A model generated the notes under the pieces. That model ran no database searches, had not been told where the DNA came from, and saw only the letters and a list, made by a program, of their open reading frames with translations. 43,182 nt of DNA, taken from positions 1 through 43,182 of IMG/VR virus record IMGVR_UViG_3300010151_000026, one strand, 5' to 3'. Below, one piece after another: positions 1,837 to 43,182 of the stretch. Numbering within the stretch: position 1 is the stretch's first letter; every line of letters begins with the position of its first letter. Made by a program: the position numbers and the translations under genes. This DNA is from a virus.

Positions 1837-1845
1837 GGAGTAACT

Positions 1846-4102: not shown

Positions 4103-4403
4103 TAGAATTCCAATAGCTCCAGCAGACGGTGACATAGAGGAGACAGTTAAGCTGTTCCAGTCCAAGTACCGACAAGTAATAACAGAAAATAATAAGCATG
4201 ACACTGAAGATGAGGGTAGCGGTGGCCCGGTACCACCATGTATTCTACCTAGTGGCTGGATGAAGAGGCTCAAGAAGCCGGGTAAAGTATACGAGTATGA
4301 TAGAACAGAGATACTAAATTACAATGAAATCCAGTACGTTCATGGACCGGAACATGCTAAAGCATGGGCTGATAGGAGGTGGCATGAACGGGATCGGAAG
4401 TAA
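4092..4403 (+). CDS. Hypothetical protein, 103 aa, first gene of the replication block
   Basis: Unrecognised hydrophilic protein with an acidic N-terminal half and a basic, tryptophan-containing C-terminus (HAKAWADRRWHERDRK). AAGGAGAGG at 4080-4088 precedes the ATG. It overlaps the preceding gene by 11 nt and the primase gene by 20 nt. Because it is the first gene after the sigma-E-type promoter and precedes the primase, a replication accessory role is possible, but no motif supports it. Confidence 0.65.
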   Translation: MRTNRIPIAPADGDIEETVKLFQSKYRQVITENNKHDTEDEGSGGPVPPCILPSGWMKRLKKPGKVYEYDRTEILNYNEIQYVHGPEHAKAWADRRWHERDRK

Positions 4404-5235
4404 ATTAGAAGAGTATGTTGATGAGCTAGAAACTGGTGAGACTATACGCATCAATCACAGTAGCTGTCCAGCAGGGGAGGACACCAGACGTAGGCTATAC
4501 ATCACCAAGAAACCTGATGTTGTCCTAGCTTACTGTCATAACTGTGGCGAAAGTAGTAGCAGATACATTAGTTCAAGAGACAGATACCGTGATCATAGAA
4601 GTGCCAAGTGGTTTAAAGAACCAACACCCAGTGAATATGTGGAACCCTTGGTAGTTAGATTTGGAGATGTAAAAAATATACCAGTAGAAGCAGAGGCATG
4701 GCGTATTAAAAGCAAGCTGTCACGCCAACAGTGTGAAGATAATAAGATCTTCTATGTACCTGATAGTGATGCTATTTATCTACCGTTCTTTGCAATGGAT
4801 GGTTTCACTAATGGATACCAACTCAGACCTTTACATAAGCATGGAGCTAAATATATTAATTGTGTTAAGGATAACGATGAAGAACTAGGTGGTATTATAA
4901 GTAATCCAACGCAATCAAATGATACCTTAGTAATAGTAGAGGATCTGGTATCAGGTATACACATTATAGAGGCTGGCTATGATGCACTAGTTAATTATGG
5001 TACTCATGTCAAGCCTACTATTTTGTTCCGTGCTATCCAAGAGAAGTATAAAGACTATGTGATTTGGTTGGATAATGACAACAAAGTAGTAGATGAAAAA
5101 GCAAGACAGATGTACGATATACTACATATGTATAAACATACGGATCAATCTGTACGGTTAATTCAAGACGCTAATGATCCTAAGCACCATAATGAAATTA
5201 ATATCTCAAAGGAGGTAGAAAATGGACGTACTTGA
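4384..5235 (+). CDS. DNA primase with zinc-binding N-terminus and TOPRIM domain
   Basis: 283 aa from the ATG at 4384, chosen because AGGAGG (4374-4379) lies five bases upstream. The N-terminus has H25/C28 and C51-x2-C54 (YCHNCG), a zinc-binding set as in gp4-type primases. The TOPRIM core follows: VEDLVSG around 185-191 supplies the glutamate and WLDND at 228-232 supplies the DxD. It makes RNA primers for lagging-strand synthesis. In T7 the primase and helicase are one protein; here they are separate genes overlapping by 14 nt. Primase activity is predicted with confidence. The partner is questionable because the helicase-like protein next door lacks ATPase residues. Confidence 0.88.
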   Translation: MNGIGSKLEEYVDELETGETIRINHSSCPAGEDTRRRLYITKKPDVVLAYCHNCGESSSRYISSRDRYRDHRSAKWFKEPTPSEYVEPLVVRFGDVKNIPVEAEAWRIKSKLSRQQCEDNKIFYVPDSDAIYLPFFAMDGFTNGYQLRPLHKHGAKYINCVKDNDEELGGIISNPTQSNDTLVIVEDLVSGIHIIEAGYDALVNYGTHVKPTILFRAIQEKYKDYVIWLDNDNKVVDEKARQMYDILHMYKHTDQSVRLIQDANDPKHHNEINISKEVENGRT

Positions 5236-6493
5236 TTTAGATATTCTCACCTTCTTAAGTGACCGTTCTAACTACGAGAAATATGGTGAGGTAGTAGACA
5301 AGGGACTATGCACTAAAGTCAGTTGGCGTTTAGTACAGGACTTCGGTGAGTACTATGAGAATCACCCGGAAGTACAACAGATAGATAGTGACTTCACACT
5401 GTGGTTTAGAGTTGATAAACATCCGGGTATGAAATCAGATGAGGCCGAAAGCTATGGCGCAATCATCAATAACATTCAGAGTAAGAAGGACGATGGGTTC
5501 GGAGTCAGTGATACATTCGTAGATACCCTTAAGATGGCTAGAACAAAGGCTACTATTTTACATCTAACCGATGATCTTGACTCAGGACGTATCAACCTTA
5601 GCGAATTTTCAACTAGAGTATCAGCACTATACGAGCCAATAAGAGCAGGAGATTCTGGTGGGCCTGTTATACTTGACCTTGAGGAACTTGCCAAGAATGG
5701 TAGAGACAAGAACGGAGTATACTGGAGGCTTGAAGATCTCAATAAATCTGTAGGTCCAATACGGAAAGGTGATCTGGTCATCGTTGCTAAACGACCAGAA
5801 GTAGGAGGGACTAGCTTCCTAGCTAGTGAACTGACCTTCATGTTTGAACAGCTAGGAGATAAAGATGCTGTAATCTTTAACAATGAGGAAGCCCCTGATA
5901 AGATTTATACTAGGGTGGTATCGGCAGCTCTTGGTGTAGATTACCGTACTATGATGTCGAATCCAGTACACTATGCCAATGAGTATACTAAGTTTCTTGA
6001 TGGGAGAAAGATTGATATTATCCACAGTACTTCAATGCTAGCATCGGATATTAGGAGACGGCTTGACAGTGGTAACTATGGTTTATTAGGAGTTAATGTA
6101 CTTCTTAAGGTAGGGGTACCCGGACGAATGGAGGACCATGACAAGCTACAGTATGTTGGTGAGGAACTACGAAGCCTTGCATCCGACTACTGTCCGGTCA
6201 TTGGGATTACACAAGCTGATCCGTCAGCAGAAGGAGTAAGATATATTCATCAGGATCGTATCTATAAGAGCAAGACAGCCTTGCAAGGTGAGGCTGATGT
6301 CCTGTTGATGATTGGTATGGACTACGATGAGCCACCTGATACACGGTTCATTCATGTAGCCAAGAATAAGATCCCACCTGCACCATGTACTGATCCAAGC
6401 GTGAGTCATATCATGTCCGAGATTAAGTTCGATGGTCAGCTAGGTAGGTTCAGTAGTAAATTATTTAAGGGGAACAGTCGTGCCTTCAAGTAA
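5222..6493 (+). CDS. DnaB/gp4-type replicative helicase-like protein with degenerate ATPase motifs
   Basis: 423 aa with an excellent ribosome binding site (AAAGGAGG). The C-terminal RecA-like core is recognisable: AKRPEVGGTS at 189-198 in the P-loop position, NNEEA at 220-224, GITQAD with Q331, and SKTALQGEAD near the end. The P-loop lysine is Gly196 (GGG at 5807-5809), and the place of the Walker B aspartate appears to be Asn292 (LLGVNVLLK). Both residues are needed for ATP hydrolysis in DnaB-family helicases. It may be an inactive paralogue, a helicase loader or mediator, or an enzyme using other residues. Position between primase and polymerase fits a replisome role. Confidence 0.82.
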   Translation: MDVLDLDILTFLSDRSNYEKYGEVVDKGLCTKVSWRLVQDFGEYYENHPEVQQIDSDFTLWFRVDKHPGMKSDEAESYGAIINNIQSKKDDGFGVSDTFVDTLKMARTKATILHLTDDLDSGRINLSEFSTRVSALYEPIRAGDSGGPVILDLEELAKNGRDKNGVYWRLEDLNKSVGPIRKGDLVIVAKRPEVGGTSFLASELTFMFEQLGDKDAVIFNNEEAPDKIYTRVVSAALGVDYRTMMSNPVHYANEYTKFLDGRKIDIIHSTSMLASDIRRRLDSGNYGLLGVNVLLKVGVPGRMEDHDKLQYVGEELRSLASDYCPVIGITQADPSAEGVRYIHQDRIYKSKTALQGEADVLLMIGMDYDEPPDTRFIHVAKNKIPPAPCTDPSVSHIMSEIKFDGQLGRFSSKLFKGNSRAFK

Positions 6494-8375
6494 GATAGTA
6501 GAAGATATCTATTTTGATCTGGAAACTACAGCACGTGGTCCAGATAGTAGCCCCGAAGCACACTATAAAGAGAACTATCTTGTAATGTGTGGTTACACGG
6601 CGTGGGGTCATTATAATTATAGTAATACTATAGATGATCTAGTCAGAGAAGTGGAACGTATGTTGCATGATGGTTCACGACCTAGACTAATAGCACACAA
6701 TCTTAAGTTTGATCTTAAGTGGCTACTCCGACTAGCACCAGAAGTACCGTGGCATATGTGTGAGTTTTATTGCACCATGACCGCCGAATACAGGATCAGT
6801 GGTCATCGTACTAAGTTCATATCATTAGAGAAAGCTGCTACTAACTATAGTATCTCATTGAAAAAGACACTAGATCTCGGTGCCCTAATAAAACAAGGCG
6901 TTGATGTCGCTGACATTGATAAGAAAGACTTAAGTAAATATCTAGAGCAAGATGTTAAGCTGCTTCGTGCAGTGTATATAAGCCAAGAGCAAGCTGGTTA
7001 TGATTTTGATTATATCCTACCTTTAGCACGGATGGAATTGAATGGACTACCTCTACATGAGGAAAAAACTAGGGGAGAACTCAAGAGTCTGGCTGGCATA
7101 CATGCCGCTGCTATTAGGGTAGTAGAGTCTAATATCAGATCTAGTCTTGTGTGGTCAGACGGTACTGCTGTAAATAGTGGGGACTTCAAACCACTAGCAC
7201 CCCGTACTATCAGCTACTACCTGACTGGCTATCCTGAGCATGGACTAGGTGGTAAGAATGATAAGAAGCATGTCGTATTTAAGCAAGGGCACGGTCCACA
7301 CCTCGATCAGACAAAGATCAAAAGCGTATGGTCTGCTGAACCTAATCCAAACCTAGGCTACCCTATTAATGTAGGAGTATTAGATGATCTAGTCAAGCAG
7401 TCTCCTGTAGTAGCAGCATACAAAGAAGCGAAAGATGCTAACAAGATTATCAACACTTATCTTATACCCTTCCTTACCGAAGCTAAGCATACTGGTGGTA
7501 CCATCCATCCTAAGCTTAATACTTGTAGCACCAACACGGGAAGACTTAGCTCTAGTAACCCGAACGGACAGAACATACCACCAACAGTACGAAACTTAAT
7601 TAAAAGTACAGAAGGTTACATCTACGAGATCGACTTCGCTCAACTAGAAATGATTGGAGCAGCAACCTTGTCACGAGATTCTAAGATGATCTCTGATATT
7701 TTAGATGGGAGGGACATCCACTTTGAATCAGGGAAGGAGGTATTTCAATGGAAGACTCCAGCAGATATGACCAAGGAAGAACGACGTACTGTGAAGGGTG
7801 TAAACTTCGGACTGCTATATGGTGGTGGGGCAGCAGGAATCAGTGAGAATACTGGTGCTAATAAGGCTACTGTTAAGAAGCTAATAGCTTCCTTCTATGA
7901 AAGGTATCCGGGTGTTAAGGACTGGCAAGATGAAGTTTATCAGGAGATCACTAGGTGTCCTTGGGTAGAAGGGCATAAGGATGGCGAATCTTATCGAGCT
8001 GCTATTTGGACAGCTCCAGCTGAACATGGCAGACGACGGTATTACTTTGAGGAATCAGCCAGTCCGTTATGGAAACAACGACAAGATGGCAGGACGTTTA
8101 GCTTCAAGCCTACCGAAACTAAGAACTATCCGATTCAGGGATTCGCAGGGGGTGACATTGTGATGTGTGCTCTTAGTGTTCTTGATGCAGTACTAGCCTT
8201 CACGGATGCTAAACTACGTATGACAGTACATGACTCCATCGTAGTAGACTGGAGCAAGGATAAAGAGAGAGACCTAGAACATATTATGAACAAGGTGTGT
8301 GAGTTGGTACGCACCGAACTGAGTATACCAGTGCCTCTGGTATATGATATAGAAGCCGAAGTGTATTGGCTATAG
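6480..8375 (+). CDS. polA-like: Family-A DNA polymerase with 3'-5' exonuclease
   Basis: 631 aa from a GTG at 6480, preceded by AAGGGG and overlapping the helicase gene by 14 nt. Exonuclease motifs are D13-x-E15, HNLKFD ending at D78, and Y154-x3-D158. Polymerase motif A is EIDFAQLE (D385). Motif B runs R435, K439, F443, Y447 (KGVNFGLLYG). Motif C is VHDS (H584, D585). No 5'-3' nuclease domain is present, as in T7 gp5. Phe443 corresponds to E. coli Phe762, the residue used in viral ecology to group phage PolA types. All catalytic residues are present, so this should be the active replicative polymerase. Confidence 0.95.
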   Translation: MPSSKIVEDIYFDLETTARGPDSSPEAHYKENYLVMCGYTAWGHYNYSNTIDDLVREVERMLHDGSRPRLIAHNLKFDLKWLLRLAPEVPWHMCEFYCTMTAEYRISGHRTKFISLEKAATNYSISLKKTLDLGALIKQGVDVADIDKKDLSKYLEQDVKLLRAVYISQEQAGYDFDYILPLARMELNGLPLHEEKTRGELKSLAGIHAAAIRVVESNIRSSLVWSDGTAVNSGDFKPLAPRTISYYLTGYPEHGLGGKNDKKHVVFKQGHGPHLDQTKIKSVWSAEPNPNLGYPINVGVLDDLVKQSPVVAAYKEAKDANKIINTYLIPFLTEAKHTGGTIHPKLNTCSTNTGRLSSSNPNGQNIPPTVRNLIKSTEGYIYEIDFAQLEMIGAATLSRDSKMISDILDGRDIHFESGKEVFQWKTPADMTKEERRTVKGVNFGLLYGGGAAGISENTGANKATVKKLIASFYERYPGVKDWQDEVYQEITRCPWVEGHKDGESYRAAIWTAPAEHGRRRYYFEESASPLWKQRQDGRTFSFKPTETKNYPIQGFAGGDIVMCALSVLDAVLAFTDAKLRMTVHDSIVVDWSKDKERDLEHIMNKVCELVRTELSIPVPLVYDIEAEVYWL

Positions 8376-11305: not shown

Positions 11306-11433
11306 TGGAGAGAGAAGATGCGGTATTCTACTTAGAGGAACTATATGAATACCTTAACGAGAACTTTAGCAATCTCGGTATACCCGAAGAATGGCTGATC
11401 GCAATAGAAGAAGCAGTAGAAAGGGCTGAGTAA
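11305..11433 (+). CDS. Very small acidic protein, 42 aa
   Basis: A 42-codon frame starts at an ATG that overlaps the exonuclease stop (TAATG) and ends in a TAA that overlaps the ATG of nrdJ (TAATG). The product is acidic and helical (EREDAVFYLEELYEYLNEN, then IPEEWLIAIEEAVERAE). Both junctions are perfect coupling overlaps, which argues for a real translated gene rather than a chance frame. No family was recognised. Its position could make it a small partner of NrdJ or of the exonuclease. Confidence 0.6.
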   Translation: MEREDAVFYLEELYEYLNENFSNLGIPEEWLIAIEEAVERAE

Positions 11434-13319
11434 TGATGGACTTATATCAACAATACATCCATAAAAGCCGTTACGCTAGATATCTACCGGATGAGAAGCG
11501 GCGGGAAACTTGGGAGGAAACCGTAGATAGATACATGACCTTTATGGCAGAGAATCTATCTAAGAACGTAGACTACGAGCTATCAGATAAGACGTATAAC
11601 GAGTTACGTGATGCTATCTTATGTATGGAAATCATGCCTAGCATGAGGGCCATGATGACAGCAGGGCGAGCATTAGAACGGGACCATGTAGCAGGGTACA
11701 ACTGTGCTTATGTTCCTATTGATGACAGGAAAGTATTCGATGAGATCATGTACATACTGCTCTGCGGAACTGGGGTTGGCTTTAGTGTAGAACGAGAATA
11801 TACCAGTCAATTACCAGAGATACCAAAAGAGTTCTTCCCGGCATCGGCTACTATAAATGTTGCTGACTCTAAAATAGGGTGGGCCTCTGCTCTCAGAAAA
11901 TTTATATCTTTGTTATATGATGGACAAGTACCTGAAGTTGACTACTCAAAAGTACGGTCAGCAGGTATGCCACTTAAGACATTCGGAGGTAGGGCTAGTG
12001 GTCCTGAGCCACTACAGGAGTTGTTTCAGTTTATCTATACTATCTTTGATGGTGCAAAGGGGAGACAACTAACTGACTTGGAGTGCCATGACATCGTATG
12101 TAAGATCGCTGAGTCGGTAGTAGTTGGTGGTGTCCGTCGCTCTGCTCTTATCAGTCTGTCAAACCTACAGTCTGAGAGACTTAGGGGAGCTAAACAAGGG
12201 ACTTGGTACTACGCTGATCCTCAACGAGCGTTGTCTAACAACTCTGTCTGTTACACAGAAACGCCTGACACTGGTGTGTTTCTGAAAGAGTGGTCAGCAT
12301 TATATGAATCAAAGTCAGGAGAACGTGGCATATTCAGCCGAGCTACAGCAGAGGCGGATCTACCTGAGCGGCGAGAAGGTGGACACGCTTGGGGAACCAA
12401 CCCATGCAGTGAGATTATCCTTCGACCCCGGCAGTTCTGTAATCTTACAGAAGTAGTGTGTCGTGGAGATGATAGTACGGACGACTTGAAGCGGAAGATT
12501 AGGCTTGCAACAATCCTTGGTACTTTCCAATCAACCTTTACTTCTTTCCGATATCTCAGTAAGCGTTGGCAGTCTAACTGTGAAGAGGAACGGTTACTTG
12601 GTGTATCACTCACTGGTATACAAGATTGTAAATTGCTTAGTATGGGTACACTCCAAATTACTCTAGATGATTTACTAGAAAATTTGAAAGCCTATTCGAT
12701 TAATGTAAATTCACGATGGGCAACGGAACTCGGTATACAAAGATCAGCTGCAATCACCTGCGTTAAGCCATCAGGAACTGTCAGCCAGCTAACTAATTCG
12801 AGTAGCGGTATCCACCCAAGATACGCACCGTACTATGTACGCAGAGTTCGACAGTCCAAGTCTGACCCTCTTAGTCAAGCTCTTATAGATGCAGGAGTAC
12901 CACATGAAACTGACGTTACAAACGAAAGTACATGGGTCTTTACATTTCCACAAGCTTCTCCTGAAGGGAGTGTGTGCGTTAGCGATGTAGCAGCAATTTC
13001 ACAACTGAAACACTGGAAGATATTCGATAAATCCTACTGTGAACATAAGCCCTCTGTTAGTATATACGTACGAGAGGACGAGTGGCTGGCGGTGGGAGCA
13101 TGGGTATTCTGTAACTTCGATGCTATATCAGGAGTATCTTTTTTCCCAGTAGATGAACACACCTACCGACAAGCTCCATATCAGGCAATCGAGAAGGAGG
13201 AATGGGAAGGTCTTATGGCAGAGTTTCCAGATGAAATAGATTGGAATGTAAATGAAGAAATAGATAGCACTACATCTAGCCAAGAGCTAGCGTGTGCAGG
13301 AGGTGCTTGTGAATTATGA
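11433..13319 (+). CDS. nrdJ: Class II (adenosylcobalamin-dependent) ribonucleotide reductase, monomeric type
   Basis: 628 aa. The N-terminus (RRETWEETVDRYM, IMPSMRAMMTAGRALERD, YNCAY) and the core NPCSEIILRPRQFCNLTE match the Lactobacillus-type ribonucleoside triphosphate reductase. Active-site residues are C91, C325, E327 and C336. The C-terminal redox pair is C621/C626 (CAGGACEL), with the same spacings as C408/E410/C419 and C731/C736 in the L. leichmannii enzyme. It is about 110 residues shorter than that enzyme but keeps all catalytic residues. It makes dNTPs without oxygen or a second subunit but needs coenzyme B12. No thioredoxin or glutaredoxin gene was seen nearby, so the reductant is presumably the host's. 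Confidence 0.93.
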   Translation: MMDLYQQYIHKSRYARYLPDEKRRETWEETVDRYMTFMAENLSKNVDYELSDKTYNELRDAILCMEIMPSMRAMMTAGRALERDHVAGYNCAYVPIDDRKVFDEIMYILLCGTGVGFSVEREYTSQLPEIPKEFFPASATINVADSKIGWASALRKFISLLYDGQVPEVDYSKVRSAGMPLKTFGGRASGPEPLQELFQFIYTIFDGAKGRQLTDLECHDIVCKIAESVVVGGVRRSALISLSNLQSERLRGAKQGTWYYADPQRALSNNSVCYTETPDTGVFLKEWSALYESKSGERGIFSRATAEADLPERREGGHAWGTNPCSEIILRPRQFCNLTEVVCRGDDSTDDLKRKIRLATILGTFQSTFTSFRYLSKRWQSNCEEERLLGVSLTGIQDCKLLSMGTLQITLDDLLENLKAYSINVNSRWATELGIQRSAAITCVKPSGTVSQLTNSSSGIHPRYAPYYVRRVRQSKSDPLSQALIDAGVPHETDVTNESTWVFTFPQASPEGSVCVSDVAAISQLKHWKIFDKSYCEHKPSVSIYVREDEWLAVGAWVFCNFDAISGVSFFPVDEHTYRQAPYQAIEKEEWEGLMAEFPDEIDWNVNEEIDSTTSSQELACAGGACEL

Positions 13320-13585: not shown

Positions 13586-13795
13586 ATGAATAGTAGTGAA
13601 GCCGACGCTGTTGGTGCAAGAGGTCTATTAAATCTTGAAAGTACTACAGCTGCCGAATTTCTTCAGCTTATATTTGGTATGCTGGAGGCTACCGGATTAG
13701 ATGGTACAGGAACAGTAATTGAATTTGAAGATATAGATGGTCTTGCTAAATCTGTGTGGATAGAGATATGGAACGATGATCTTGAAATACAGTAG
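13586..13795 (+). CDS. Hypothetical small acidic protein, 69 aa
   Basis: Well placed start with AGGAGG upstream. The protein is soluble and acidic (LEATGLDGTGTVIEFEDIDG, WIEIWNDDLEIQ) without recognisable motif. Its last 20 bases overlap the sigma factor gene, whose own ribosome binding site is poor, so translation of the sigma factor may depend on this gene. It might be a leader or a partner (for example an anti-sigma protein), but no family similarity supports the latter. Confidence 0.65.
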   Translation: MNSSEADAVGARGLLNLESTTAAEFLQLIFGMLEATGLDGTGTVIEFEDIDGLAKSVWIEIWNDDLEIQ

Positions 13796-14366
13796 TCTCT
13801 CGACAGACGCTCAGTTGGTCCGACGGGTTCAGAAGGGCGACAAGGGGGCGTTCGACTTGTTAGTATTGAAATACCAGTACAAGATTACCAAGTTGATAAC
13901 GCGATATATACGAGATCCAGATCAGGCTTTGGATATTACACAGGAAACTTTTCTCAAAGCTTATCGGGCACAGCCACGGTTTCGTGGCTACAGCTCGTTC
14001 TATACGTGGCTCTACCGGATCGCTGTTAATACAGCCAAGAACTATTTGACTGCTACTAAGAGACGACCACTAGATCTAGAGTTAAACCTACAAGAGCCTG
14101 AGCAATATGATCTCCATGCGAAACTAAAGGAGACAGATACACCAGAAGGGCTGACACTTAGTAAGGAATTACACGCTACTCTCAAGGAAGCAATAGAGGC
14201 TCTGCCGGAAGCTCTTCGTAAGGCACTACTGCTACGTGAACTCGATGGTATGAGTTACGAAGAGATAATGCAGACGATGAATTGTCCGGCAGGGACCGTA
14301 CGATCAAGGATCTACAGAGCTAGGAACGCTATAGACAAAAAGATTGGGAGCTATTATGAATGGTAA
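13776..14366 (+). CDS. rpoE-like: RpoE-like ECF sigma factor
   Basis: 196 aa, strikingly close to gammaproteobacterial RpoE (191 aa in E. coli). Region 2 spans about 25-95, with the promoter-melting stretch FYTWLYRIAVNTAKNYL at 75-91. Region 4 spans about 138-190, with LRELDGMSYEEI and the -35 recognition helix GTVRSRIYRAR at 173-183, nearly identical to E. coli RpoE as I recall it. It should bind host core RNA polymerase and recognise GGAACTT...TCTAA promoters. Two exact such sites lie at 4043-4070 and 41642-41669. It sits near the end of the rightward operon downstream of the first site, so it should stimulate its own expression. It overlaps the previous gene by 20 nt. Probably captured from a host genome. 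Confidence 0.93.
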   Translation: MILKYSSLSTDAQLVRRVQKGDKGAFDLLVLKYQYKITKLITRYIRDPDQALDITQETFLKAYRAQPRFRGYSSFYTWLYRIAVNTAKNYLTATKRRPLDLELNLQEPEQYDLHAKLKETDTPEGLTLSKELHATLKEAIEALPEALRKALLLRELDGMSYEEIMQTMNCPAGTVRSRIYRARNAIDKKIGSYYEW

Positions 14367-14628
14367 ACGAGCACGTAGAATACGTAGAGGTATACAGTAC
14401 AAAAAAAGCCCGGACCATTTAGTGGAACCGGGCGGACTACGAGAAGAGGATGGTAAATTGTACTTTAAGTTTGCTAAAAATGACCATGCGAATCAGTATC
14501 GCTGGTGGAAGAAGGGAGTAGCATGTGGTAAGATTGCACCTGAGCTAGTAAACCACCTAGGACATCGACAAGCACCTCATCATCAGACAACTCAGGATGG
14601 CCTGAATAGTGGAGAAGAAAATGAGTAA
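14356..14628 (+). CDS. Hypothetical small basic protein, 90 aa, last rightward gene
   Basis: ATG at 14356 with GGGAG six bases upstream, overlapping the sigma gene by 11 nt. The N-terminus is very basic (MNGKRARRIRRGIQYKKS) and there is a WWKKG stretch in the middle. The gene runs over the leftward terminator (14401-14433), and its second half is antisense to the leftward metallopeptidase gene. The good start signal argues for translation, but the overlap leaves some doubt about the C-terminal half. No family was recognised; nucleic acid binding would fit the charge. Confidence 0.5.
   Translation: MNGKRARRIRRGIQYKKSPDHLVEPGGLREEDGKLYFKFAKNDHANQYRWWKKGVACGKIAPELVNHLGHRQAPHHQTTQDGLNSGEENE
14401..14433 (-). 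terminator. Intrinsic terminator ending the leftward late operon
   Basis: Read leftward, GCCCGG (14433-14428) pairs with CCGGGC (14413-14408), with a further inner 3-bp CCA/TGG pairing. The hairpin is followed at once by seven T residues (14407-14401). It lies 40 nt after the last leftward gene and inside the opposite-strand gene at 14356-14628. In the rightward direction there is no T tract, so it should stop only leftward transcripts. Confidence 0.85.
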
Positions 14629-29135: not shown

Positions 29136-29168
29136 TAAAAAGGTTTCCCCCTCCGAAGAGGGGGAACC
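29136..29168 (-). terminator. Intrinsic terminator behind the capsid/decoration genes
   Basis: Read leftward, GGTTCCCCCTC (29168-29158) and GAGGGGGAAACC (29153-29142) form an 11-bp stem with one bulge and a TTCG loop closed by C-G, a very stable tetraloop. TTTTT (29141-29137) follows. It lies in the 54-nt gap between the decoration protein and the tail tube A genes. Partial termination here would give more capsid than tail transcript. Confidence 0.88.
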
Positions 29169-29688: not shown

Positions 29689-30645
29689 TTATACTTGATC
29701 AGTGTCTGACAGAACGCAGACAAGGTTTTCGGGACGGTAGACCTTCAGGCCGTAACGAGACGTAGTAACGTATTCTTCACGCTGTTTGTCTTTATTGTAG
29801 TCGGAATCGACTTCCGGCATCTGCCTCATCGCACCCATGAATGGGAGGATATCGGTAGAAGCGGCAGACATGAAGACGTTTGCTACACCAGCAGCAGTCG
29901 TAAGACTGCCGATGTTTTCGTTAGCGGTCGGCAGGTAGTTAGATACAAAAACGTCGAAACCGAAGATGTTCTTAACGAACTGCATATCGGAACCGATGCC
30001 TGTCTCAACAATACCTTCCCAACGGGGGTTATTAGAAATGTTGGTAATGTTAGAAATCGTGTTGATTTCATACTCTACCGACGGGTCAACAATAGCGATC
30101 AAGCTAGAACCCGGTACGTTAGCCTTTTTGAGGCTGTACAGAGCTTTAGCGAAGTCCGCTACTGCCATCGTTTCGTTCGTGCCAGTAGCAACGAAGCGAT
30201 GATCCGCACCGTTGATCTGGTTGGCGTTAGCTGCCGTCTGTCCACCAGAAGCACCGCCTGCTGCGAGAGCAAGGATGTCGGTCTCAAGACGCTCGCCAAG
30301 AGCACGAGCTTGTGAAGGAACGAAAGACGATTCCAGTTGAGCAGAATAGAAAGCGTCCTGTCGGTTCTTCTTCGTGATGTAATGAGCTGCACTCACATAT
30401 TCCGTAATAGAGAATGTGAACTCACCAGTGTCAAGTGCGTCGTAGACGATATCAGTATCTTCTACGTAGTCACGCAATGTTGACTCACCAATGGAAGGGA
30501 TGGTGAACTGATCGCCATCGGGAAATTCCGACAGCCAGTTTACCCAGCCCTGTGCATTGAGGTCGTCTTGCAAGACTTCCTTTAGCTGGTTCGCCCAGAT
30601 CTCACTACGGACAAGGAGGGCAGAACTTGTTGTTGTCATTGCCAT
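29689..30645 (-). CDS. Major capsid protein (HK97 fold)
   Basis: 318 aa. The sequence has the usual run of podovirus capsids: N-arm (SEIWANQLKEVLQDDLNAQG), an E-loop-like beta stretch (FTFSITEYVSAAHYITKKNR), the spine helix region (PSQARALGERLETDILALAA) and the P-domain strand with VPGSSLIAIVDPSVEYEIN. It is preceded by a scaffold gene and followed by a decoration gene. GGAGA lies upstream of the ATG. Confidence 0.88.
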   Translation of the reverse strand: MAMTTTSSALLVRSEIWANQLKEVLQDDLNAQGWVNWLSEFPDGDQFTIPSIGESTLRDYVEDTDIVYDALDTGEFTFSITEYVSAAHYITKKNRQDAFYSAQLESSFVPSQARALGERLETDILALAAGGASGGQTAANANQINGADHRFVATGTNETMAVADFAKALYSLKKANVPGSSLIAIVDPSVEYEINTISNITNISNNPRWEGIVETGIGSDMQFVKNIFGFDVFVSNYLPTANENIGSLTTAAGVANVFMSAASTDILPFMGAMRQMPEVDSDYNKDKQREEYVTTSRYGLKVYRPENLVCVLSDTDQV

Positions 30646-31668: not shown

Positions 31669-32426
31669 CTAATAACTTCGTCAATTAAGTATCCTGTATA
31701 TGTTCCTGCGATACTTACATCAGAACCTGTAACAGTACCCTGTACTCTTATTTCTTCTTTTTCTGATACCTGAAGCATTAGTTCTGCCGTTACTTGAGTC
31801 TGATAACAATCGGTACTGTAGCGTGTACGCCACGCTGACTCTCCACCAGTCTCTTTAGTTTGAATTCTAAATGTTAGATCAGCAGTTCCCATTCTACCTG
31901 ATACAACATTAAATTCTGTAATAAATAGCGTTTTACCCGCAGGTACTGTGTCCATTAACTGAAGTGTTTGTCCTTCTCCTGCTTCGATAGTTGCTTGTAC
32001 ATCCCCACCAATCGACATAGAAATAGTACCAACATTTACCTCGTTAGAACCAGCAGTAAGATTGTAAGCTCGTGAAACTCTTAAGAACTCTTTTGTGGTA
32101 TTTACAGTAGAAGTACCGTCCATTGTTACCGTTTCACTGCTCTCTGCATAGTCCTCATCCAGACCCTCTATTTGAACTGTCCGTGCTCCAGTACCAGCTG
32201 CGTCATCAGCAGCACTATCAGATACTACTGCTACAACAGATGCTGATGTAGGTAGCGTACGCACTCCACCGTGCATCCACACATCTTCTATACCAGTATC
32301 AATATCTGGGTTACGCCCAAATTTACGTGTGTACTGCCACCCTCGATAAGCACCTAGTTTAACCATTGCTCTGGGTTCTTGCAATGGTATTAGGTTTGGA
32401 TCTACGGGTACTGCTCTACTAGCCAT
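31665..32426 (-). CDS. Beta-rich structural protein, 253 aa
   Basis: Starts on the portal stop codon (TAATG) with AGGAG upstream. The body is beta-sheet-like with many Thr, Val and Gly residues (TLFITEFNVVSGRMGTADLT, LMLQVSEKEEIRVQGTVTG). The last part resembles the receptor or cap-type jelly-roll domains seen in phage virion proteins, but I cannot name a family. It is probably a virion component between portal and scaffold. Confidence 0.6.
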   Translation of the reverse strand: MASRAVPVDPNLIPLQEPRAMVKLGAYRGWQYTRKFGRNPDIDTGIEDVWMHGGVRTLPTSASVVAVVSDSAADDAAGTGARTVQIEGLDEDYAESSETVTMDGTSTVNTTKEFLRVSRAYNLTAGSNEVNVGTISMSIGGDVQATIEAGEGQTLQLMDTVPAGKTLFITEFNVVSGRMGTADLTFRIQTKETGGESAWRTRYSTDCYQTQVTAELMLQVSEKEEIRVQGTVTGSDVSIAGTYTGYLIDEVIR

Positions 32427-34240
32427 TATAATTCTCCTGCTGCCATAGCTTCTTCTTCCACATCAGCCATCTCATTAAATACTTGTTGTCTACCTGATAG
32501 CTCTTCAGCTACACTCTGTTGGGCTTGCGTAGCAATACTCTGTGTTTCCTGTGACTCAGCGACTCTGATATTGTCAGCCACCAGATCAAACTTACCAAGT
32601 CCCAGAAGCTCTTCTGCAAGCTCAGCCATCTTCTTACCAGAGATGTGAGTACTAACAGCCGGGTCAGCGTAGATAGCAGAGCTAGCGAGTCCCATCAGAT
32701 TCTGCATGATCTGTGCTTGTCTACTAAAGTGACGAGCACCGATAGGACGAAGCTTACCCTTTTTAGTCAGCTGCTCCGGTCCAATCTTTAGGAACTCTTC
32801 TACACCAAAATCTTGGTCAACTGACTTTACCAGCTCTATGCTAGTTATATTTTCTCTGGCTGCTGACAACATCTGATTCAGTAACGGTTCAATAAACATC
32901 TCTTCAAAGTGCTGAATCTTCTGTTGGAAGATACGACCAGCAGCATTCTCCAGTGCTTGAACCTCAAAGGCAGTCTTCTCACCCGGTGTACGAATACCCA
33001 TAGCCTGTCTAGGTGCTCCTGCCAGCTCTTCCATGTTCTGCATCAAACGGTCCATCTGGAAGTCAGCATTCAAAGCAGTAGCATCTGGACGGAGTACCTG
33101 AACATCTGCATCAACATCAAGGAAGATCCGTTCATCCGGCCCCCACTCAAAGTCTTCAGCTTGACCTCGCACTACCACGATGGGGTGTGCAATCTGATCG
33201 AATACGTCAGCCTTCAAGTTCTCAAGATGATCCAGACGATACTGCATACCTACTAGATTTGCTAGAGGAGACATAGACCAGAGATTGTCTGGGCGATCAC
33301 GCCAACCAACGTGTTCCTTATTGGAACGTCCAATCCAAGTCTTAATAGGCTCGTCATATACTGTATACTTACGATCTACTACGATAATACGTCGATTCGT
33401 TTTAACCTCTCCCGTTTCCGTCGAGAAGGTATCGCCTTCATACTCCAGTACTTCAATCATACCGGATGACATGTAAGAGCGCATATTGCCAAAACCATCT
33501 ACAATGAGACCTTCGGCTTTATCCATATCGGAGTCTCCGTAGTTTGATAGTTCATTACGAAGACGTACACATTTTTCGACGGCAGTATGTGCCCACTCAT
33601 AACCGGGGATATTCTCGGCTGCGTACTTAAGCGTTCCAGCAGAAACCAAGGTTCGAGTAACTTTACCTGAATCTTTGAAACTGGAAGATGTCAGATCGAA
33701 CTGGATATCGTATGGACTGATGCGCTGTAGCTTTGGTCCTATATAAGTATTATAACTCATACCGTCAGGATTTGTGTGGCTATCAGACAGGTATGTTACT
33801 TCACCAAAGGCGTTTCCTGCATCAATGTAGTCAAGGAGCAACTGTGAAACAGTCTCCTTGAAATCCGACTCACGGATCTTTTGTTTTATGTAGGCTTCAA
33901 TAGTGCGAGCCGTTTCACGGTCTACACCAGCTTGACTCTCCGCTTCCCACTTAAACCAATCGTCGTGAGGAAATAAAGCAGCCATGTAGTTAGCATGGAG
34001 ATTATCTCGGATCTGACAGATCTTAGGGATAGATGTTTTATTCTTCCACGGAAGCTGAGAGTTTGTAGTCTTAGTCGTATCCGTCTGAAAGATATAGTTT
34101 CGTAACTCTTTCGTTTCAGCTCGGATAGTAGCACTATTATTACGCCAGTCCGTATACCGCTGAGATACGAAGGCAGCGATATGATCGCCACTATCCAAAA
34201 GGTTTCTTATTTCTTGAACTGCTTTTGCAACTCTCGGCAT
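32426..34240 (-). CDS. Portal (head-tail connector) protein
   Basis: 604 aa, with GGAGGA upstream of the ATG. The N-terminus (RYTDWRNNSATIRAETKELR, NLHANYMAALFPHDDWFKWE) and the stretch around MSPLANLVGMQYRLDHLENLK, read here in part, are typical of podovirus portals. The C-terminal third is a long helix-rich barrel or crown (EEMFIEPLLNQMLSAAREN). It forms the dodecameric DNA gate and packaging motor base. It overlaps the terminase stop by one base and lies upstream of the capsid block. Confidence 0.85.
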   Translation of the reverse strand: MPRVAKAVQEIRNLLDSGDHIAAFVSQRYTDWRNNSATIRAETKELRNYIFQTDTTKTTNSQLPWKNKTSIPKICQIRDNLHANYMAALFPHDDWFKWEAESQAGVDRETARTIEAYIKQKIRESDFKETVSQLLLDYIDAGNAFGEVTYLSDSHTNPDGMSYNTYIGPKLQRISPYDIQFDLTSSSFKDSGKVTRTLVSAGTLKYAAENIPGYEWAHTAVEKCVRLRNELSNYGDSDMDKAEGLIVDGFGNMRSYMSSGMIEVLEYEGDTFSTETGEVKTNRRIIVVDRKYTVYDEPIKTWIGRSNKEHVGWRDRPDNLWSMSPLANLVGMQYRLDHLENLKADVFDQIAHPIVVVRGQAEDFEWGPDERIFLDVDADVQVLRPDATALNADFQMDRLMQNMEELAGAPRQAMGIRTPGEKTAFEVQALENAAGRIFQQKIQHFEEMFIEPLLNQMLSAARENITSIELVKSVDQDFGVEEFLKIGPEQLTKKGKLRPIGARHFSRQAQIMQNLMGLASSAIYADPAVSTHISGKKMAELAEELLGLGKFDLVADNIRVAESQETQSIATQAQQSVAEELSGRQQVFNEMADVEEEAMAAGEL

Positions 34241-35772
34241 TACATTATTCCTCCGAATCTGCTATGTGTTACCACCTTCCTGTCTCTACTATGCAGTCGC
34301 ATACTATTGATTGGAGGTTTTAGGATACCACACACAGATTCAAAGGCATCCTTTATGTCATCGTTTGGCGGATTATACATTATGAGTTCCTGCTCTAGAT
34401 CTTCGCAGTGCCCACCTCTATAGTGCCATATTGTATAGTTTTCGTATCGTGGCTTTAGAGTAGCGTGTATACGCTCCTGTTTTGTGCCCATGTTTCTGGT
34501 TGGTCTATAATCTTCGACCGATAGTCCCAGCCCTTCTCTACGAATCTCATCTTTGATGTGCTCAGCAATCACTGCTTGCCCACCAACAACTTCAGCTCTC
34601 ATCTTTTTAAAACCCCACTTTATGTGGGCATCCAGAACCATCTGGAAGTAGTCACTAACTTTATTAGTGCGTGTACGTTTAACATCAAGTACGTAGATAT
34701 AACCGTCTGCGTCTATACCTACAACTACTAAGGCTGTGTAATCAGCTGTAGCTTTAAGGCTAAACGCAAAGTCTATCGCAGCGAAGACGTTTAGAATCTT
34801 ACCGTTGTAAAACCAACGGCCATTCTCATACTTGAGATACTTCCGATCATAATGCTGGAAAAGACTAGGGTCGATAGCAGCTTCGCCGGGGTCGTTCGGG
34901 TTATTATAATACTGAGAGTAAAACTGTGTTCTATCTAAGTACTTAGCCCGTTTCTGCGACAAGATCTGAGTATTGAAACCAAACCAGCGACCATCGCCTC
35001 GTTGCATTCTCGGCCAAAGGAACTCCCCTGTTGCATCGCCCATGTTCTCAACTTCTTTCTGCCATATTTCATAGACTGGCTTGGACTCGATCACCTCCCC
35101 GTCTTTATTGTAGACCTCTTCATTTACGGCCATTAATGTACCGTACAGATCACGGGGGTGATAGCGAGTACCGACAATCCACTCCTTCGCGTCTGTGGTT
35201 TCGATACTAGCTAGTAGTGAGTACTGTCTTTCAACTTTCTCACGACCTTCCCTTGTATAGGCATTCTCATTTACAACAACGTCGTCAAGCACTGCTATAT
35301 TACAGTGTAGACCTGTAATAGAAGTAGTCAGTCCAGCGGTGAATACCGTTGAGTCTCTGACCCCTTCTGCTAACCGTTTTGGGTGGTCAACCTGAATCTC
35401 AGAGTTAGTCCACTTAGCTCGCTTACCTTCGTCTATGTGAACCATCTCAGACCAGTACTTACGATACCTAGCAGACGTTAAGATGTCTTTGACAAACTGT
35501 AACTGTTTCTCTGCTAAACCAGATGTAGCACTGATATACAAGATAGTTACTGCCGGATTGCGTGTAATCTCCCACGCAACCCGGTAAGCAACCATAGTAC
35601 TTTTCTGGTGGTCACGAGGCAGAAGAACCATCTGATGCTCTGCTGCTTCGGGACGACACCACCACTTGATAAGATCTTCGTGGCACTGCCCTAGCACACG
35701 GTGCGGGGCAATGAGTCGGATAAAAGTCAGCAAGTCTTCTTCTGCTGCCTGACGAATTTGGTCCTTCGTCAA
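34240..35772 (-). CDS. terL: Terminase large subunit
   Basis: 510 aa from a TTG at 35772, chosen because AAGGAG lies seven bases upstream and no ATG is suitably placed. ATPase motifs are LPRDHQKST (51-59) for Walker A and IAVLDDVV (159-166) for Walker B. The C-terminal RNase H-like nuclease begins at AAIDFAFS (D334) with a second aspartate near 344. It cuts and pumps the concatemer into the prohead. It is separated from the small subunit gene by four fibre-type genes, an unusual arrangement. Confidence 0.92.
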   Translation of the reverse strand: MTKDQIRQAAEEDLLTFIRLIAPHRVLGQCHEDLIKWWCRPEAAEHQMVLLPRDHQKSTMVAYRVAWEITRNPAVTILYISATSGLAEKQLQFVKDILTSARYRKYWSEMVHIDEGKRAKWTNSEIQVDHPKRLAEGVRDSTVFTAGLTTSITGLHCNIAVLDDVVVNENAYTREGREKVERQYSLLASIETTDAKEWIVGTRYHPRDLYGTLMAVNEEVYNKDGEVIESKPVYEIWQKEVENMGDATGEFLWPRMQRGDGRWFGFNTQILSQKRAKYLDRTQFYSQYYNNPNDPGEAAIDPSLFQHYDRKYLKYENGRWFYNGKILNVFAAIDFAFSLKATADYTALVVVGIDADGYIYVLDVKRTRTNKVSDYFQMVLDAHIKWGFKKMRAEVVGGQAVIAEHIKDEIRREGLGLSVEDYRPTRNMGTKQERIHATLKPRYENYTIWHYRGGHCEDLEQELIMYNPPNDDIKDAFESVCGILKPPINSMRLHSRDRKVVTHSRFGGIM

Positions 35773-40781: not shown

Positions 40782-41375
40782 TTACTCCACTAGTCCTATG
40801 AGTTTAGCGTCCTCTTTGAGAGAACGCTCTTCTTCGATTTCCTGTTTCTTAGTTGCTTCTTTCTCAGCTTTAGACGGGCGGCCCCTTTTGTTTTTGGTTT
40901 TCTCCCCGTACACATCGTGCAGCCATTTGGTTGCTTGGAGACCTTGCGGAGTGCCTGCACCATTCGTCGCAGCATCTTTCATCTCCTCGTATCTTTCTGA
41001 GGCCATCCTAGCCTTAAGCTCTTCTCGCCACTCTGATGCCTGTTCCAAGAACCACGGACGCTCTGTAAGCTTCTTCCAGTGCTCCCACGAACCAAGCAGC
41101 CTCAAGGCCACTTGATATTCTGTGGGATCTGCTATCTCCATGTACTTCTGATACATGGATACGCAGCCTTCATGTTCGTACTTCTTCAGCGTGAAGACCG
41201 GCGTATACCGGGGGTGGCGGCTCTCCCAGAATAAGGACTGGGTTCGGAACCTACCCTGATCGTCCTTGAGAGCGGCGAAACCACCCCTAGTTTTATCCAT
41301 CGTCACGCCATTGTCTTCTACCCCTACGGGGTAGGTCAAGGGATCTCCTTCGTATTCTTCTGCGGCTATTCCCAC
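40782..41375 (-). CDS. terS: Terminase small subunit
   Basis: 197 aa from a GTG at 41375, chosen because AGGAG lies seven bases upstream and any earlier start would run into the tRNA gene. The central helices (FTLKKYEHEGCVSMYQKYME, YQVALRLLGSWEHWKKLTER, WLHDVYGEKTKNKRGRPSKA) match T7-group small terminases, with a basic then acidic C-terminus. It recognises the phage DNA and recruits the large subunit. It is the first protein gene of the leftward late arm, 19 bases after the tRNA. Confidence 0.78.
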   Translation of the reverse strand: MGIAAEEYEGDPLTYPVGVEDNGVTMDKTRGGFAALKDDQGRFRTQSLFWESRHPRYTPVFTLKKYEHEGCVSMYQKYMEIADPTEYQVALRLLGSWEHWKKLTERPWFLEQASEWREELKARMASERYEEMKDAATNGAGTPQGLQATKWLHDVYGEKTKNKRGRPSKAEKEATKKQEIEEERSLKEDAKLIGLVE

Positions 41376-41393: not shown

Positions 41394-41469
41394 TGGTGCC
41401 CAGTCGAGGAATCGAACCCCGGACCTTCGCATTACAAGTGCGCTGCTCTACCGGCTGAGCTAACCGGGC
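41394..41469 (-). tRNA. tRNA-Thr (anticodon TGT) with encoded CCA
   Basis: Read leftward, the acceptor arms GCCCGGT and ACTGGGC pair (one G-T). The D arm is GCTC/GAGC, the anticodon loop CTTGTAA has anticodon TGT, the T arm is CGGGG/CCTCG with TTCGATT loop, and A73 is followed by an encoded CCA. Only the outer anticodon-stem pair (G-A) is a mismatch. The gene is complete and should work. It sits in the leader of the late operon, downstream of the sigma-E-type promoter. Confidence 0.95.
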
Positions 41470-41494
41470 GATGCCGGTGTCTCATTAGGATTAC

Positions 41495-41523
41495 TTGATG
41501 AGAGGGGCGTAGCCCCATATAGT
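41495..41523 (+). promoter_or_regulatory. Candidate sigma-70 early promoter, rightward
   Basis: TTGATG (41495-41500), 17 nt, TATAGT (41518-41523), matching TTGACA/TATAAT at 4 and 5 of 6 positions. The spacer holds a perfect inverted repeat, GGGGC-GTA-GCCCC (41504-41516), which could be an operator. The transcript would start at about 41530 and give a leader of more than 500 nt before the first early gene at 42056. It faces the leftward sigma-E-type promoter. Confidence 0.4.
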
Positions 41524-41563
41524 TGTATAATATCAACCATATTACATTCCCATGCAACCCACA

Positions 41564-41629
41564 CCTCGTCTTGGCGAGGCCGACCCCTTGGGAGGTCGAG
41601 CCTCTAGCAGTAGGGTTATTTCATAACCC
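41564..41629 (-). promoter_or_regulatory. Structured late leader between promoter and tRNA
   Basis: Between the late promoter and the tRNA the leftward transcript holds several hairpins: GGGTTAT/ATAACCC (41613-41629, loop of three), CGACC/GGTCG (41581-41598) and CCTCG/CGAGG (41564-41579). None is followed by a T tract in the leftward sense, so they look like RNA structure or processing sites, not terminators. Confidence 0.45.
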
Positions 41630-41641
41630 CCTGCGGGTTAT
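41613..41641. repeat. Three-arm alternating hairpin GGGTTAT / ATAACCC / GGGTTAT
   Basis: GGGTTAT at 41613-41619 and at 41635-41641 can each pair with the single ATAACCC at 41623-41629 (loops TTC and CCTGC). Only one hairpin can form at a time, so the element could switch. It covers the predicted start of the leftward late transcript. Confidence 0.6.
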
Positions 41642-41669
41642 TTAGACAATGAAAAACAGAAAAAGTTCC
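41642..41669 (-). promoter_or_regulatory. Sigma-E-type promoter, leftward, head of the late operon
   Basis: Read leftward: GGAACTT (41669-41663), followed by a T-rich 15-nt spacer, then GTCTAA (41647-41642). This equals GAACTT-16-TCTAA, the same arrangement as the site at 4043-4070. The predicted start at about 41635 leads into the tRNA-Thr, small terminase and all structural genes. The phage RpoE-like factor should recognise it; host RpoE could as well. Confidence 0.8.
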
Positions 41670-41749
41670 ATTTAATTTTAAGGAATCACAGAATTTCTCC
41701 GAGATAATTTTTAGGTGGGTTTCACTTCGCAGGCTCCGCCCCGTGTCCC

Positions 41750-41909
41750 CAGCCCCTCCGGGGCTGAATTATGTCAAGTCGGGGGAGGCCAGAGTACTTA
41801 CGTACTCTGAATTTTTCTCGTTATGTACGCACGAATCAAGGTCTTAAGACCTTGATTTTAAAGCAGCTTCTCAATGGCTTGTCCCACTGAATAATCCGTT
41901 AGGATTATT
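41750..41909. repeat. Cluster of perfect hairpins in the control region
   Basis: Four perfect short hairpins: CAGCCCC-TCC-GGGGCTG (41750-41766); CAGAGTAC-TTAC-GTACTCTG (41790-41809), followed by AATTTTT; AATCAAGGTC-TTAA-GACCTTGATT, a complete palindrome (41834-41857); and AATAATCC-GTTA-GGATTATT (41890-41909). The second and third are terminator-like for rightward transcripts. No open frame with a credible start lies in this stretch. Confidence 0.75.
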
Positions 41910-41950
41910 ACCTGCGTGTGCCTGATAACTACCGCGCTGTGCATGTGTGT

Positions 41951-41972
41951 AATCACCCCGTTAGGGGTGATT
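41951..41972. repeat. Hairpin AATCACCCC / GGGGTGATT, first copy
   Basis: Perfect 9-bp stem with loop GTTA. The same arms recur at 42010-42030 with loop GAA. The loop GTTA is shared with the hairpin at 41890-41909. Confidence 0.75.
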
Positions 41973-42001
41973 CAAGCAGCTGGCTCGGCGTACTCTCCTA
42001 T

Positions 42002-42042
42002 AAAAAATAAATCACCCCGAAGGGGTGATTGATTTATTTTTT
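42002..42042. terminator. Bidirectional intrinsic terminator just before the first early gene
   Basis: AATCACCCC-GAA-GGGGTGATT (42010-42030) is flanked by AAAAAATA on the left and TATTTTTT on the right, which extend the stem by eight A-T pairs past a 4-nt bulge. Either strand shows a GC-rich stem followed by a T tract. The T tract ends within a few bases of the AGAGGAG ribosome binding site of the gene at 42056, so a rightward transcript must read through it to express that gene. Confidence 0.7.
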
Positions 42043-42055
42043 AGAGGAGAGTAAA

Positions 42056-42241
42056 ATGGCAAAGCGAAATTGGGAAGTGGTAATAGCCGTTTACAACGGC
42101 TTCGGTTGGATCGGCAACGAAGTTGCTACTGTACAAGCAGGAACACGAACACAAGCCTTTAGGCTTGTCGACGAGACAATTGCTGGTAACTTCGATACCC
42201 GATGGGTATCAGCGGACAGAGGAGAGATCGTCCTCGGCTAG
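42056..42241 (+). CDS. Hypothetical early protein, 61 aa, with embedded hairpins
   Basis: ATG at 42056 with AGAGGAGAG upstream. The small basic-to-neutral protein (MAKRNWEVVIAVYNGFGWIG) has no known motif; a short alpha/beta fold is likely. The coding sequence holds three perfect hairpins: AGCCGTT-TAC-AACGGCT (42085-42101), ACAAGCC-TTTA-GGCTTGT (42151-42168) and GATACCC-GAT-GGGTATC (42194-42210). Codons are more G/C-ending than in the genes after position 1. It is the first gene of the rightward arm. Confidence 0.65.
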   Translation: MAKRNWEVVIAVYNGFGWIGNEVATVQAGTRTQAFRLVDETIAGNFDTRWVSADRGEIVLG

Positions 42242-42244
42242 AGC

Positions 42245-42293
42245 CTAGCTCCCTACGCCTCCTGAGCAAAGCGAAGGAGGCTAGGGGAGCTAG
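42245..42293 (+). terminator. Long hairpin after the first early gene, possible terminator
   Basis: CTAGCTCCC (42245-42253) pairs with GGGAGCTAG (42285-42293), and GCCTCCT (42257-42263) pairs with AGGAGGC (42275-42281), separated by a 3x3 internal loop, giving 16 bp in all. TTTTT follows only eight bases later (42302-42306), so termination is likely partial. It begins four bases after the stop codon. Confidence 0.5.
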
Positions 42294-42320
42294 CCACTAA
42301 ATTTTTCCACCATCAACCAT

Positions 42321-42335
42321 CAAATCGGAGATTTG
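42321..42335 (+). promoter_or_regulatory. Ribosome binding site inside a hairpin
   Basis: CAAATC-GGA-GATTTG is a perfect 6-bp hairpin ending two bases before the ATG at 42338. The GGAG (42327-42330) that should bind the ribosome forms the loop and first stem base. Folding could present or hide the site, so it may tune translation. Confidence 0.6.
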
Positions 42336-42337
42336 AA

Positions 42338-42760
42338 ATGAACGACCTGCAAATCAGTCAGCTTGCTGACTCGAACGATGTCTTTGACATCGCTGAAGCC
42401 TTCGGCTTCGACATTGGAGTCGTCTACGACGACGTAGCTGGCACTCTCTGGGAGAGAGTGGCAATGGAATACGAAGCTGCCAAAGGCAGCGAGCGAACTG
42501 TAGTTGGCTACGGCGATGACCAGTTATCGTGGGTAGGGCGAATGTATACTGACGACCAGCTTGGAAAGCTGGATGGGCCGGGTCGCTATGTTAACTGGGC
42601 GGACATGGCTGGCATTCGACCTAAGTCGAATAAGGCACGTACTGCCAAAGGCAGCATGACAAAAAGGCAGCGTAAAGCTGCCCGGAAAGCTGAGCGTAAG
42701 GCTAAGAGAGAGGCTGCTAATGCAGCCTCTGATCTAGTCACCGTCGAGGTTCTGGCGTAA
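42338..42760 (+). CDS. Hypothetical early protein, 140 aa, with hairpin-dense coding sequence
   Basis: The N-terminal 95 residues are acidic and globular (DVFDIAEAFGFDIGVVYDDV, SWVGRMYTDDQLGKLDGPG). The last 40 residues are a very basic helix (KRQRKAARKAERKAKREAAN), which suggests nucleic-acid or ribosome contact. No family was recognised. The coding sequence contains at least eleven short perfect hairpins (see repeat entry). Codons are G/C-rich compared with the genes after position 1. Confidence 0.7.
   Translation: MNDLQISQLADSNDVFDIAEAFGFDIGVVYDDVAGTLWERVAMEYEAAKGSERTVVGYGDDQLSWVGRMYTDDQLGKLDGPGRYVNWADMAGIRPKSNKARTAKGSMTKRQRKAARKAERKAKREAANAASDLVTVEVLA
42356..42730. repeat. Series of short perfect hairpins inside a coding sequence
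   Basis: Hairpins with loops of 3-5 nt lie at 42356-42371 (AGTCAG/CTGACT), 42376-42392 (CGATGTC/GACATCG), 42395-42409 (GAAGCC/GGCTTC), 42419-42433 (GTCGTC/GACGAC), 42442-42460 (CACTCTCT/AGAGAGTG), 42476-42490 (GCTGCC/GGCAGC), 42556-42572 (CCAGCTT/AAGCTGG), 42614-42631 (ATTCGAC/GTCGAAT), 42642-42654 (CTGCC/GGCAG), 42666-42682 (GGCAGC/GCTGCC) and 42709-42730 (AGAGGCTGC/GCAGCCTCT). The arms differ in sequence, so they are not copies of one element. Confidence 0.8.
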
Positions 42761-42782
42761 CAATCACACACATGCGATCCCG

Positions 42783-42850
42783 CGTCCGCCGGACGAAGTC
42801 CTCGCGAAGAGTTCGACGGCTCGGTTCCGCTGCCACAGGGAACCAGCCGT
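42783..42850. ncRNA. Structured intergenic element, possible small RNA
   Basis: In the 139-nt gap between two early genes there is a small hairpin, CGTCC-GCC-GGACG (42783-42795). It is followed by a larger one in which ACGGCT/AGCCGT and GGTTCC/GGAACC form 12 bp with one bulged C and a 10-nt loop (42816-42850). No T tract follows. It may be a regulatory RNA, a processing site or a leader of the next gene. Confidence 0.35.
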
Positions 42851-42908
42851 CCCACGATTTCACAACCACGCTCCGCTTAGGGGCAAACAAGTAGAGGCAA
42901 TGAGAACA

Positions 42909-43182
42909 ATGACCAACTCACGAGTAAGTAACAAGCAGATTCTTGACGCTATCTTAGGTCTGACCGAGGCTATTAGAGGTCAGAACGCAGTCACTTCTGC
43001 TCCTGTAATTGACACGCCAGAGGTTCCTTCGGAACCGTCGCAGATCAAGGTATCTAAAGAGTACCTTGGCAATCGTAAGGTTGCAGCTCAGGCACACGCT
43101 AATAAGGTCGGCGGTACAGTAGTACTGTATGCCCGTCGTAACCTTAGTGGCGAAACCAAGCTCGCCTTCGCACAAGAGAGCC
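42909..43182 (+). CDS. Hypothetical early protein, continues past the window edge
   Basis: The frame is open from an ATG at 42900. The ATG at 42909 is preferred because AGAGG then lies about 11 nt upstream instead of two. It runs through the right edge. Joined to base 1 it would read four more codons and stop at TGA (12-14), overlapping the ATG at 11, for about 95 aa in all. The product has a helical N-terminus (NSRVSNKQILDAILGLTEAI), a proline linker and a small alpha/beta C-terminal part (SKEYLGNRKVAAQAHANK, VVLYARRNLSGETKL). Two hairpins lie inside it (43022-43036 GGTTCC/GGAACC; 43046-43068 CAAGGTA/TACCTTG). No function recognised. Confidence 0.65.
   Translation, partial: MTNSRVSNKQILDAILGLTEAIRGQNAVTSAPVIDTPEVPSEPSQIKVSKEYLGNRKVAAQAHANKVGGTVVLYARRNLSGETKLAFAQES

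Follow-up and report, generated by a model that had tools for sequence, protein, structure and literature searches.

This locus raises the question of which signal opens the leftward late operon of an uncultured phage, and which sigma factor reads it. In the window (the whole stretch of 43,182 nucleotides that was analysed), a sequence-only reading had placed a sigma-E promoter of the form GGAACTT-15-GTCTAA at 41642-41669, and GGAACTTTTTCTGTTTTTCATTGTCTAA was found exactly there on the minus strand. The chance expectation given by that reading, about 0.001 matches, was borne out by recalculation, with 0.0013 under equal base frequencies and 0.0017 under the base composition of the window, while 600 dinucleotide shuffles of the window produced one match in total to the 13-base pattern. 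A weight-matrix scan, which the same reading had proposed as a check, was run with the window's own sites left out of the matrix and gave top two scores of 42.6 and 30.5, with 7.9 for the third. The tRNA-Thr, terS and structural genes that the site was said to face all lay downstream of it and on the minus strand:

41642-41669, minus strand, putative late sigma-E-type promoter (−35 GGAACTT at 41669-41663, 15-nt spacer, −10 GTCTAA at 41647-41642)
41394-41469, minus strand, tRNA-Thr (TGT), within the leader of the predicted late transcript
40782-41375, minus strand, putative terS, which opens the protein-coding part of the late operon (phrog_8035, a family of unknown function)
34240-35772, minus strand, terminase large subunit (TerL)
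32426-34240, minus strand, portal / head-tail adaptor
29689-30645, minus strand, major capsid protein, identified from its homology with the capsid gene annotated in ICBM2

After the putative terS, the minus strand continued with TerL, portal and scaffold, followed by the capsid and tail genes. The name terS rests on the place of this gene before TerL; it starts with GTG at 41375 and has the ribosome-binding site AGGAG upstream. The transcript start is predicted at about 41637-41634, and the late leader from the site to tRNA-Thr was about 170 nt long.

Two hairpin features were observed on this side of the genome. A 9-bp perfect hairpin (TTCCCCCTC-CGAA-GAGGGGGAA) at 29145-29166, lying past the capsid gene in the interval between two late genes, is possibly a terminator or attenuator inside the late operon. 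The region 41471-43182 was rich in short perfect hairpins (stem of at least 6, loop of 3-5), with 25 compared to 1.4 (maximum 5) in shuffles and a density of 14.6 per kb compared to 1.2 elsewhere, both inside and between the early reading frames. A matching patch was present in the divergent early region of sister genomes G010, G012, G020, G057 and G015, and was weaker in G002 and G047.

A search with spacers of 13-18 revealed a second copy of the site on the plus strand. It was located at the 3' end of a short ORF (3761-4102), between a CobT-like gene and the primase gene, and faces a replication operon which also includes nucleases:

4043-4070, plus strand, putative middle sigma-E-type promoter, with spacing identical to the late site
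4324-5235, plus strand, DNA primase, downstream of the middle site
5222-6493, plus strand, DnaB-like helicase
6480-8375, plus strand, DNA polymerase
11433-13319, plus strand, ribonucleotide reductase, sharing an operon with the sigma gene further downstream
13776-14366, plus strand, RpoE/AlgU-type ECF sigma factor of 196 aa, near the end of the rightward operon

The window thus has two exact sites, one per strand and each opening a functional block, where approximately 0.002 were expected. The middle copy is not a chance counter-example to the late site, because it is conserved before the primase in relatives. CobS-like and CobT-like genes (727-3774) directly precede the middle site, an order which the sister genomes keep.

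With regard to promoter class, both window sites matched the −35 GGAACTT and a GTCTAA-type −10 at the 15/16-nt spacing exactly. Comparison of 23 distinct sites showed A-rich sequence at −10 to −3 and a weakly conserved spacer; the A/T-rich upstream stretch and the conserved boxes around a variable spacer are likewise as in sigma-E promoters. The sigma-E promoters of micA and rybB have a −35 of GGAACTTTT and a −10 of GTCAAA (PMC1804206). The −35 box of bacterial RpoE/AlgU regulon promoters is the same as in the phage sites and their −10 is also of the GTC-AA type; however, the bacterial regulon drives envelope-stress genes whereas the phage sites precede replication and virion operons.

Exactly two sites, one per strand, were found in each of the near-complete sister genomes G002, G010, G012, G020, G025 and G047, and the partial contigs G001, G007, G014 and G057 showed the same pair. 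One site stood before terS and the other in the replication operon, usually before the primase, except in G025 and G047 where the second site was at the end of the polymerase gene. Position, strand and boxes were conserved in about 10 sister genomes. When each listed sister except G057 was scanned with a matrix built without its own sites, the pair ranked as the top two, usually by a wide margin; the middle site of G025 was weak, scoring 9.4 compared to 7.5 for the third-best. The 50 contigs that carried a related terminase or sigma gene had 27 GAACT-N16-GTCTAA sites between them and 1 of the reversed-pattern control. Alignment of close relatives showed that GAACTTTT and ATTGTCTAA were invariant while the spacer varied, and relatives kept GAACT-N16-GTCTAA upstream of terS in the correct orientation with diverged spacer and flanks. 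In G015 both sites carried an altered −10, GTCTTA, and the identical change at the two sites fits one trans-acting factor reading both; GTCTTA was likewise present upstream of terS in L015. In some relatives tRNAs for Pro, Met, Ser and Thr lay near the late site, several of them between the site and terS.

The sigma factor encoded by the window carried region 2 (PF04542, 1e-16) and region 4 (PF08281, 3e-16). Its best full-length matches were 6in7_B (1e-62) and 1or7_A (9e-62), the sequences of AlgU and E. coli RpoE in solved structures, compared to only 8e-24 for SigW, so that it groups with RpoE over other ECF classes. Among bacterial genomes it came closest to RpoE proteins encoded on Woeseiaceae chromosomes (79% identity), and it was placed inside the Woeseiaceae RpoE clade with a support of 99; the captured gene would point to a Woeseiaceae host. 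In RpoE the FYTWLYRIAVNTAKNY segment of region 2 reads the −10 box and the recognition helix reads the −35 box. The FYTWLYRIAVNTAKNY motif of the phage protein was the same as in bacterial RpoE, and its recognition helix GTVRSRI was unchanged or nearly so. No RseA/MucA anti-sigma gene was recognised adjoining the phage gene, the next gene (14344-14628) having no Pfam match, while an RseA-like gene followed rpoE in all three bacterial loci examined. An adjacent anti-sigma gene is a feature of context and lies outside the definition of an RpoE/AlgU-type protein.

Among the window and its sisters, an RpoE-like gene was present only in the window, G001 and G002. The copy in G001/G002 is located elsewhere in the genome and is 47% identical to the window copy; the differing location means that the expression timing of the sigma gene is not conserved. 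The differing positions and the 47% identity suggest that rpoE may have been captured independently by the window phage and by G001/G002, but a tree constrained to hold the phage copies together was not rejected (p 0.69, long branch). No sigma gene was found in the remaining sisters with PF04542, PF08281, phrog_1740 or an unfiltered RpoE profile, and a hidden divergent sigma gene in these genomes was rejected on the absence of any match in the four profile searches. The near relative G057 had both sites and no sigma gene within its 37 kb. A replacement gene common to the sigma-less relatives was also sought by clustering, which returned mostly structural proteins and antisense frames and no clear candidate. 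Since the sites occur without a detectable sigma gene in most relatives, the phage sigma factor cannot be the sole possible reader, and host RpoE is the probable reader in most relatives. Most simply read, the promoters are ones that host RpoE can use, and a small number of phages have come to supply a copy themselves. In six Woeseiaceae genomes the sigma-E consensus, strict or looser, did not occur above control, and the looser form was not enriched in Vibrio either, so that the scan had no discriminating power. The sole strict site in the six Woeseiaceae-type genomes was L216 in G051.

TerL of the window was 50-57% identical to that of the Zobellviridae podoviruses ICBM2, CRP-4, SIO1 and MEP401, and homologous terminase, portal, capsid and tail genes with a bidirectional genome layout place the phage with Zobellviridae-like podoviruses. 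The two sites probably form the middle/late sigma-E regulon of such a podophage, read in the window phage mainly by the captured RpoE. We infer the following course of events from the arrangement of sites and genes. The early plus-strand genes would be transcribed by the host sigma-70 RNA polymerase, and phage rpoE would be expressed early by read-through. Phage RpoE would then join the host core RNA polymerase and recognise GGAACTT-N15-GTCTAA. At 4043-4070 it would boost the replication operon and, with rpoE downstream in that operon, exert positive feedback on its own gene. At 41669-41642 the leftward late transcript would start; it would carry the leader and tRNA-Thr, then terS and the genes for terminase, capsid and tail. 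With no recognisable RseA-type gene accompanying the captured copy, phage RpoE could fire without envelope stress. In sigma-less relatives with the same two sites, host RpoE would be the probable reader. The original claim that a sigma-E promoter opens the late operon is thus supported by the conservation in relatives and by the RpoE-type sigma gene of the phage, but it was incomplete, as the middle promoter, the phage-borne RpoE and the probable use of host RpoE in relatives had all been missed.

A rival to the captured sigma factor as main reader is that host RpoE mainly serves the sites in the window phage too, the phage protein being an accessory with another purpose, such as titrating host sigma factors, taking their place or changing which host genes are transcribed. 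Most sisters keep the sites without a detectable sigma gene, similar sites are present in unrelated phage contigs that are likewise sigma-less, and host RpoE would read the same sequence because the DNA-reading segments are unchanged. However, the window phage keeps an intact RpoE with these segments unchanged beside exactly matching promoters, and host RpoE is normally held by RseA, as established in E. coli; we consider this reading unlikely. A still smaller chance is given to sites that resemble sigma-E promoters by convergence and are read by another phage factor, such as an RNA polymerase or activator that escaped recognition. The unassigned genes of the sigma-less relatives leave room for such a factor, but none of the window proteins scanned was a single-subunit RNA polymerase, and sigma-E is matched by both boxes, by their spacing and by the A/T-rich stretch upstream, in a phage that has an RpoE gene. 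That the late site is a chance match without function is hardly credible: consensus matches alone are no evidence of function, but 0.0017 matches were expected and two were found, with position, strand and boxes kept in the sisters, and a chance origin was rejected on the shuffles and the comparative controls.

Unrelated phage contigs also had similar sites, which preceded capsid, replication and terminase-like genes. A scan of IMG/VR with a stricter pattern returned 86 stretches at the sigma-E spacing compared to 14, 23 and 37 at other spacings, so that the background is not negligible. In 37 contigs from the IMG/VR scans, a looser pattern gave 58 sites and the reversed control 0; most of these contigs were chosen for holding a site, and therefore only the additional sites are independent evidence. 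In the examples examined, almost every site fell in sequence not covered by a long reading frame and preceded a gene of the same orientation. Among these genes were capsid genes (phrog_334, phrog_267) and others that look scaffold-like or terS-like from their sequences. The 68-kb phage contig G079 (L327-L330), with no detected homology to the window, had five sigma-E-type sites, one of them preceding scaffold-like and capsid genes, and no sigma gene was found in it. The site pair was absent from the cultured Zobellviridae examined and from cultured KPP25 and AP1 (50 kb of each of the two). The cultured Zobellviridae member Erwinia phage Pecta (L342) had AAACTTTTT-N-GTCTAT near 46176 and AAACTTTTT-N-GTCATA near 7387, the latter some 120 bases ahead of the gene that comes before capsid; these are possibly related promoters. 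We give an even chance to the broader proposal that several unrelated tailed-phage lineages put replication and virion operons under host sigma-E, with late transcription awaiting its release, and that the window phage escaped by capturing rpoE without the anti-sigma gene.

Among known systems, the closest precedent is that of the phage sigma factors gp36 of phiEco32 and gp47 of 7-11, which steer host RNA polymerase to conserved middle/late promoters (PMC8948821, PMC4331800). The likeness to the window phage lies in a sigma gene together with conserved sites before middle and late operons, and the early genes of phiEco32/7-11 are on host sigma-70 promoters, as is presumed for the window phage. 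However, the promoter consensus in phiEco32/7-11 is tAATGTAtA or GTAAtg-16-aCTA (PMC8948821), which the GGAACTT-15-GTCTAA sites of the window do not match. The window protein is a captured bacterial RpoE with canonical sigma-E sites, whereas the sigma factors of phiEco32/7-11 differ in class and specificity, and unlike these phages the window phage has sisters which keep the sites without a sigma gene. Other Zobellviridae (CW02 gp21, VPMCC5 VP5_035/036, Klyazma orf044) have an annotated sigma factor gene within their replication operon, but these proteins are short, divergent and encoded between primase/helicase and polymerase, and the genomes of CW02, VPMCC5 and Klyazma have no GAACT-N16-GTCTAA pair, unlike the window. 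For the Pseudomonas putida phage pf16, a modelled effect of SspB on the RseA anti-sigma factor was presented (PMC5587285); this is a proposed phage link to host RpoE, and the available part of that source describes no phage sigma-E promoters. No account of a lytic phage with sigma-E-dependent late promoters turned up in the open-access literature searched, a scope that takes in few of the subscription papers.

If the reading of the two sites as a sigma-E regulon is correct, the timing of gene expression in this uncultured phage group would be explained, and phage development would be tied to the envelope-stress response of the host. As the promoter is recognisable from its sequence, late operons could be identified in many phage contigs that lack annotation. 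Finally, the sisters with and without their own RpoE would offer a clean comparison between self-sufficient and host-dependent late transcription.
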